This document shows, piece by piece, positions 12,186-12,346 of a DNA stretch of 64,000 bases; within the stretch, counting starts at the first letter, position 1, and each line of letters starts with the position of its first letter. The notes under the pieces are model-generated. The model saw nothing but the letters and a program-made list of their open reading frames with translations. It was not told where the DNA came from and ran no database searches. The stretch lies in contig NZ_JAANOU010000001.1 in assembly GCF_011758765.1 (NCBI RefSeq), positions 558,001 to 622,000 of the forward strand, written 5' to 3'. This DNA is from Amycolatopsis viridis. Lineage in GTDB: Bacteria > Actinomycetota > Actinomycetes > Mycobacteriales > Pseudonocardiaceae. A program made the position numbers and the translations under genes.

Positions 12186-12224
12186 CCGCGACGGGGGGCC
12201 GGTCCGGATCAGGCCCCGTCGCGG
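12186..12224 (-). promoter_or_regulatory. leuA attenuator stem-loop
   Basis: A perfect 11-bp stem (12186-12196 with 12214-12224, CCGCGACGGGG arms) has a 17-nt loop. Its 5' arm on the minus strand lies inside the leader-peptide reading frame just after the three Leu codons and the loop holds the leader stop codon. A ribosome stalled on the Leu codons would therefore change whether the stem forms. This matches known leucine attenuation of leuA in Actinobacteria. Confidence 0.72.
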
Positions 12225-12250
12225 CAGCGAAGCAGGAGAGCACGCGCCAC
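12209..12250 (-). CDS. leuA leader peptide (13 residues)
   Basis: Reading from GTG 12250 gives MARALLLRCRDGA then TGA, with three consecutive Leu codons (CTC CTG CTT) followed by Arg-Cys-Arg. It ends about 75 bp before leuA, and its end overlaps the attenuator stem. A GATACA -10-like hexamer (12259-12264) with a TTTTCA -35-like hexamer 16 bp further upstream (12281-12286) would put the transcription start on or next to the GTG, so the leader is probably leaderless. Confidence 0.72.
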   Translation of the reverse strand: MARALLLRCRDGA

Positions 12251-12346
12251 GGAGCCACTGTATCCCGGTCGTGATGATGATGAAAAGCGCCCCGGTCGGT
12301 TACTCGCAGGTAGCCAAGTGGCGGCGGGCGTGGGAAACTCTCCGGC

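Follow-up and report, generated by a model that had tools for sequence, protein, structure and literature searches.

The classical leu, trp and ilv transcription attenuators combine a leader peptide containing codons for the regulated amino acid with a terminator hairpin and a run of U. The closest described relative of the locus reported here is the actinobacterial LEU element, named in 2005, which consists of a pseudoknot and a base stem formed between the Leu codons of a leader and the Shine-Dalgarno (SD) sequence of leuA (Seliverstov 2005; PMC1262725). Its mechanism was left open at the time. Citing earlier work in Streptomyces coelicolor, its discoverers noted that a mutation of the leuA leader had some effect, unlike what classical attenuation predicts, and these mutational data made them doubt that the leader is translated (PMC1262725). 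Their conclusion was that the leader is unlikely to be translated and that the element may be the target of a protein (PMC1262725).

Other leuA leaders have been described as well. Those of Streptomyces lividans and Corynebacterium are likewise short, with four or five Leu codons, and for the S. lividans leader, MRFGLLLLSCRGEGL, RNA-seq reports a leaderless transcript, while a typical Rho-independent terminator is missing (PMC8079986). No transcription start site could be assigned to the leuA leader of Corynebacterium diphtheriae, hence leaderlessness is unsupported there (PMC5784534). The leuA passages of the S. lividans and Corynebacterium reports treat neither a pseudoknot nor pairing with the SD (PMC8079986, PMC5784534, PMC4046766, PMC3890552). 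In Mycobacterium abscessus, a ribosome-protected upstream ORF precedes leuA (PMC4974804). In Corynebacterium glutamicum lacking (p)ppGpp, leuL and leuA RNA rise briefly on total starvation, which suggests an effect at the RNA level (PMC6892785). Control at the DNA level exists too, as the regulator NdgR of S. coelicolor has binding sites upstream of leuB and leuC and a weak one at leuA (PMC4340878). Mycobacteria are reported to have cysteine attenuators of a similar layout, in which a leaderless short ORF carries a poly-Cys run of repeated sensor codons and control is exerted at the level of translation (PMC13236596).

The window, by which we mean the whole 64,000-nucleotide stretch of Amycolatopsis viridis DNA that was analyzed, carries a plain member of the LEU element family (Table 1). 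It shares with the 2005 description a Leu-run leader before leuA, a two-helix pseudoknot and a base stem between Leu codons and the SD (PMC1262725). With the classical attenuators it shares a leader peptide with codons for the regulated amino acid; their terminator hairpin and U run were not found here. The first-pass annotation had described a GTG-started leader of 13 codons, including three Leu codons, whose sequence runs into the 5' arm of an 11-bp stem ahead of leuA, with a -10-like hexamer just upstream; reading of the sequence and scripted placement agree with it on all of these points. Two further pairings were absent from that annotation, namely the pseudoknot strand pair (P2) and a helix between the Leu codons and the SD of leuA (P0). 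The leader stop lies 75 nt ahead of the leuA start (12133) on the minus strand, and the peptide is unchanged in 17 of 19 same-genus genomes, the window's own genome counted. The closest named LeuA match is that of Amycolatopsis deserti (98%), the window's own record perhaps having been excluded from the comparison. Adjoining leuA on the plus strand is a divergent 129-aa ORF with hydrophobic segments (12347-12736), which has no NCBIfam match.

Table 1. Features of the leuA leader region, in window coordinates.
Feature	Position	Strand	Remarks
-10-like hexamer TACAGT	12257..12262	-	6 nt gap to leader GTG; placed by script
Leader ORF, GTG to TGA, peptide MARALLLRCRDGA	12209..12250	-	13 codons plus stop; read and placed by script
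P0 5' strand (anti-SD)	12231..12241	-	spans Leu codons 1 and 2 and part of 3
Sensor Leu codons CTC CTG CTT	12230..12238	-	three consecutive, in leader ORF
P1 5' arm CCGCGACGGGG	12214..12224	-	within leader ORF; 11-bp stem
Leader stop TGA	12209..12211	-	in P1 loop, immediately 5' of the P2 5' strand
P2 5' strand GACCGGC	12198..12204	-	in P1 loop
P1 3' arm CCCCGTCGCGG	12186..12196	-	partner of 12224-12214
P2 3' strand GCCGGTC	12165..12171	-	pairs with P1 loop
P0 3' strand	12142..12152	-	contains leuA SD AGGAG (12149-12145)
leuA, 2-isopropylmalate synthase, regulated gene	10355..12133	-	NCBIfam NF002991 (E 8.8e-269), TIGR00970 (E 1.3e-263)

The leader frame proved to be conserved in relatives. 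We gathered 264 leuA loci from relatives, from phylum and class samples and from 80 named loci, with some places counted twice, and an LLL leader (a short ORF with at least three consecutive Leu codons) lies upstream of leuA at 240 of them, compared with 2.0 in dinucleotide shuffles. The 24 loci without such a leader comprise 14 from genomes labeled as sharing the phylum but not the class (L090-L099, L181-L184), five of the ten paralogues fetched (L040, L062, L063, L066 and L070) and five others (L173, L176, L178, L192 and L258). Divergent leuA paralogues, about 46-53% identical, that retain the leader include L064, L065, L067, L068 and L069; in the three that were aligned (L064, L065 and L067), P1 contains compensating CAC/GTG changes. 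Removal of duplicates left 231 distinct elements, in which the Leu run is 3 to 5 codons long, the elements having been selected by that same rule. The distance from the last Leu codon to the stop is six codons in 163 of the 231 and five to eight codons in 227.

Promoter spacing is regular too. In 191 of the 231 elements the end of a TANNNT box lies 5-8 nt ahead of a leader start that is in frame (6-7 nt in 175), as against 39, 41 and 12 elements in control windows of 9-12, 13-16 and 17-20 nt. This spacing is the pattern expected of transcripts that start at the leader start codon, and a leaderless start, as the first-pass annotation had proposed, is also what is reported for S. lividans. We therefore consider the leuA leader very probably leaderless, and we infer that the transcript in the window begins at 12250, with the leader GTG. 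On the other side, no sigma-70-type promoter passed a consensus scan of positions 12050-12420.

The element is common within its class. A covariance model matched all 61 relatives and 286 of 296 sampled class genomes; in the phylum sample it matched 20 of 197 genomes, of which 18 belong to the class or nearer and two are labeled same phylum (G163 and G241). Relative to the LEU element as described in 2005 (PMC1262725), the present analysis adds this distribution, the -10 spacing across 231 elements, the covariation of the stems and the placement of the stop at the loop. In the window's own genome, four weak matches besides leuA were obtained, and the two that were inspected resemble chance. 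Weak matches elsewhere (L266, L268-L271, L273 and L274) are chance-like, lie within coding sequence and were not counted. Two LEU elements, L272:624-695 and L295:336-409, stand before the other isopropylmalate synthase family (TIGR00973 type), whose enzymes there share about 26% identity with the window LeuA, as if the element had been retained while the enzyme was replaced. A degenerate element, L275:2086-2152, precedes a leuA paralogue; its leader frame, MRMTTWWLTRGELTRRGRG, has two Trp codons and no Leu run.

The stem seen in the first-pass annotation is one half of an H-type pseudoknot, formed by P1 together with P2. In an alignment of 111 diverse elements, 99.1% of P1 cells are paired and both sides have changed at 7 of 11 pairs, on a background of strong sequence conservation. 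P2 on the same MAFFT alignment is paired in 68.7% of cells, with both-side changes at 5 of 7 pairs, the lower pairing arising because the register of the loop shifts. We recounted P2 free of register, leaving out 14 of the 231 elements in which P1 was not cleanly located, and in 206 of the other 217 it was no shorter than 6 bp. The P2 pairing weight in these 217 leuA elements is 19.64, versus 18.60 +/- 0.12 with species-swapped partners and 13.58 with shuffled downstream sequence. The support is stronger in 44 further elements described below (19.43 versus 14.88 +/- 0.41 with swapped partners, relatedness uncorrected), because P2 has changed much there and yet still pairs. Judged from these comparisons, both stems of the pseudoknot covary. 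The position of the leader relative to the knot is also kept: in 198 of 231 elements 5 nt separate the last Leu codon from P1, and under our script rule all 231, the 14 without a cleanly located P1 included, have their stop at the P1 loop or inside it.

A compact pseudoknot with an SD in its base stem might also be a riboswitch that binds leucine directly. According to the 2005 report the element has no conserved unpaired nucleotides (PMC1262725), and direct binding leaves the swapping of leader codons described below unexplained, so we regard this reading as highly improbable.

The third pairing, P0, joins the Leu codons to the leuA SD. In the window it is 11 bp long with two G-U pairs, and the left neighbors of the Leu codons take part. 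Its weight is 26; the window has 195 further SD-like contexts, of which the best reaches 25 and three pair over at least 11 bp. Relatives with a CTCCTGC leader have GCAGGAG at the leuA SD in 41 of 59 cases, compared with 4 of 153 for leaders without CTCCTGC, and on this sequence basis P0 is present in the window and in most relatives with that leader. For four other motif pairs the association is slight or absent (2/30 vs 3/182, 2/68 vs 0/144, 4/42 vs 18/170 and 0/25 vs 2/187). Across the 212 of 231 elements with a recognizable SD (19 were dropped), P0 weight averages 17.06 for an element's own partner and 15.22 +/- 0.22 over 40 swaps, a difference to which relatedness may contribute. The idea of P0 as a class-wide device is weakened, as the association is clear only for CTCCTGC/GCAGGAG. 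No anti-SD was seen in the Val-type leaders described below, so P0 is hardly the general device. The LEU element also has an alternative hairpin that makes use of the base stem (PMC1262725); the minimum-free-energy fold of the window leader contains P0 and P1 with small extra hairpins, and the stability of the whole-leader fold is ordinary for its composition (z -0.69; 45 of 200 shuffles were equally stable). In the folding model presented below, the Leu codons of the window look like sensor and anti-SD at once.

The first-pass annotation had called this region a leuA attenuator and had stated that leucine attenuation of leuA is known in Actinobacteria. The second statement agrees with the 2005 publication of the LEU element (PMC1262725). 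The first stands insofar as this is a leuA leader element with Leu codons; attenuation of the termination type is not supported, given that the stem is half of a covarying pseudoknot and has no T run 3' of it. We found no GC-rich hairpin with a U run ahead of leuA in 12050-12420, and the reading of the stem as a transcription terminator was ruled out by the missing T run. A search against Rfam returned two chance-level matches in 10000-15000 at E values up to 5, neither of them within 12100-12300. A covarying pseudoknot without a T run makes access to the SD a likelier output than termination.

New in this analysis is a set of elements with the same knot and other leader codons, standing before leuB, leuC and a gene for a LeuA-domain-like protein. 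The LEU passages of the 2005 paper do not mention such codon-swapped versions (PMC1262725), and we found no description of them in the open-licence PMC papers that were searched. They were obtained with a second covariance model, built without the leader codons and run on 40 genomes picked mostly for having more than one model match, which gave 82 places in 39 genomes. We read 44 elements, 40 of them fetched and four (L265, L267, L276 and L278) found earlier as rows of the model's own alignment. The 44 form a non-random and phylogenetically clumped sample. The remaining places of the 82 were taken as leuA elements or as already seen, one weak place (G337:C1:2396367) aside, and the degenerate L275 was excluded from the 44. 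A script picked as leader the frame richest in branched-chain codons. For 43 of the 44 it coincides with the frame of the LEU elements, in which 18, 21 or 24 nt lie between model start and stop; the match in L303 begins one base off.

On a shared P1/P2 scaffold, the leader codons of these 44 elements differ and track the next gene. Leu runs precede leuA (8 elements) and leuC (5), with LLL in 13 of 13. The 17 leuB elements have mixed Val/Ile/Leu leaders (for example TVRIL, VFVLI, VLIL, RIFVL and VVILI) and never LLL; Val, Ile and Leu are all present in 15 of them, L332 being without Val and L320 without Ile. Before the LeuA-regulatory-domain-like protein, nine of 12 leaders contain VV or VVV (for example RLVVATRSGV and LAVVVTRRSGV), three contain ALVT or LLVT, and LLL again never occurs. 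The contrast in LLL, 13/13 for leuA and leuC versus 0/29 for leuB and the LeuA-domain elements, has a Fisher p of 3.9e-11 with relatedness uncorrected. The LeuA-domain type was found only in family f8 and the leuC type only in f95, while the leuB type spans six families. The identity of leuB and leuC was established by tblastn at every locus and, for a subset, also with NCBIfam or Pfam. Two strong elements of the VRIL type, L278 and L309 (wider stretches L338 and L339), have no leuA, leuB, leuC or LeuA-domain match in the 6.6-7 kb downstream and were assigned to none of these groups.

The short LeuA-domain-like protein gives a profile match to 2-isopropylmalate synthase chains in the PDB (1sr9, E 5e-09); against Pfam LeuA_dimer, two of four members reach E 0.01, below the curated cut-off, and the other two fall short of that. 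It is a stand-alone protein of about 130-170 aa in family f8 (L265, L267, L297-L299, L301-L306 and L308), possibly a separate regulatory subunit. At 8 of 19 leuB-type loci (L276, L320 and L330-L335), the interval from the element to leuB holds a short SD-led ORF of 20-50 aa, with C-termini that are related and resemble ALQESMDRRDNGGETGH; it may be a conserved small protein or a second leader.

That codon identity follows the downstream gene on the same knot amounts to a natural experiment, and it suggests that translation of the leader is likely the sensor. The codon-swapped elements in this way speak against the 2005 conclusion on leader translation. A protein-binding reading, for which a DEAD-box helicase-domain protein was suggested in 2005 from the mutational data (PMC1262725), would make the pseudoknot the binding site and the leader codons incidental, and it would fit the strong sequence conservation of P1. 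Leader codons that vary with the downstream gene while P1 and P2 stay constant do not fit it, and a pure protein site needs no kept frame, stop position or promoter spacing; we consider it very unlikely.

More weight is due to the possibility that a stalled or moving leader ribosome controls Rho- or pause-dependent termination before leuA, with the knot acting on RNA polymerase or on the access of Rho. The lack of an intrinsic terminator leaves room for Rho, and the LeuB match at the 17 loci assigned to leuB lies 163-667 nt past the element, too distant for direct masking of its SD. In C. glutamicum, leuL and leuA RNA increase together (PMC6892785), and a review of that organism calls the control transcriptional attenuation (PMC8709942). 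Against this, the next ORF, by script-called starts, begins only 23-30 nt past the element at the five leuC loci and 20-41 nt past it at the 12 LeuA-domain loci, P0 in the window directly takes in the leuA SD, and even among leuB-type loci the SD-led short ORF follows the element in 8 of 19. We regard termination of this kind as rather unlikely, and the evidence moderately favors translation initiation as the output over Rho-dependent or other control at the RNA level.

Our preferred reading is that the window element is a LEU element working as a translational attenuator, which we think is probably correct. Transcription would start at the leader GTG, so that a ribosome could load at the 5' end of the RNA without an SD. 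When leucyl-tRNA is plentiful, ribosomes would pass CTC CTG CTT quickly, end at the TGA in the loop and depart, and the P1 and P2 pseudoknot would then close. The freed Leu codons, complementary to AGGAG, would pair with the leuA SD as P0 and turn leuA translation off. When leucine is scarce, a ribosome stalled on the Leu codons would sit across the anti-SD strand and reach over the 5' side of P1, blocking both P0 and the knot and leaving the leuA SD accessible. The leader, the -10 spacing, P1, P2 and the stop at the loop rest on the sequences and their comparison; translation of the leader here, the direction of the effect and its level, translation or RNA, are what we infer.

A simple folding model, in which an assumed ribosome footprint is kept single-stranded and the pseudoknot is ignored, agrees with this scheme in outline. 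For the window, the modeled openness of the SD rises from 0.033 in free RNA to 0.454-0.455 when a Leu codon occupies the A-site and to 0.475 when the ribosome is at mid-leader, and it drops to 0.009 when the ribosome is at the stop. Between the first Leu codon and mid-leader it hardly matters where the ribosome stands (0.454-0.475), so the model reflects residence before the stop and no special effect of the Leu codons; codon identity would make that residence leucine-dependent. Across 191 elements, the mean gain in SD openness on stalling is 0.153, versus 0.053 for controls with a shuffled 5' portion of the leader. The gain is positive in 122 of 191 with the own leader and in 101 of 191 with the shuffled one, and 143 of 191 elements score higher with their own leader than with its control. 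The gain is larger in the CTCCTGCTT group (0.275 versus 0.083 for the control, 46 elements) and small in the other 145 (0.115 versus 0.043). In the model, the native Leu triplet ranks third among 216 synonymous triplets at closing the SD. Since no anti-SD was seen in Val-type elements, the knot itself should do the work there.

We consider it likely that the class Actinomycetia has a modular pseudoknot attenuator that can be programmed through its codons, and that the LEU element is one configuration of it. Such an attenuator would have a fixed knot, a leader stop at its loop and interchangeable sensor codons, with Leu before leuA and leuC, Val with Leu before the LeuA-domain protein and Val/Ile/Leu before leuB. 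Ribosome residence time would then be read by the knot and not by a terminator or by masking of the SD in a stem alone. In the window and its CTCCTGC relatives, Leu codons that serve as both sensor and anti-SD would mean that a codon mutation also breaks the SD-masking stem, and mutations that break P0 in this manner could explain the puzzling old mutants. The extension of the family to codon-swapped elements makes the mechanism of the LEU element directly testable, and, if the reading is true, the knot might be usable as a programmable amino-acid sensor.
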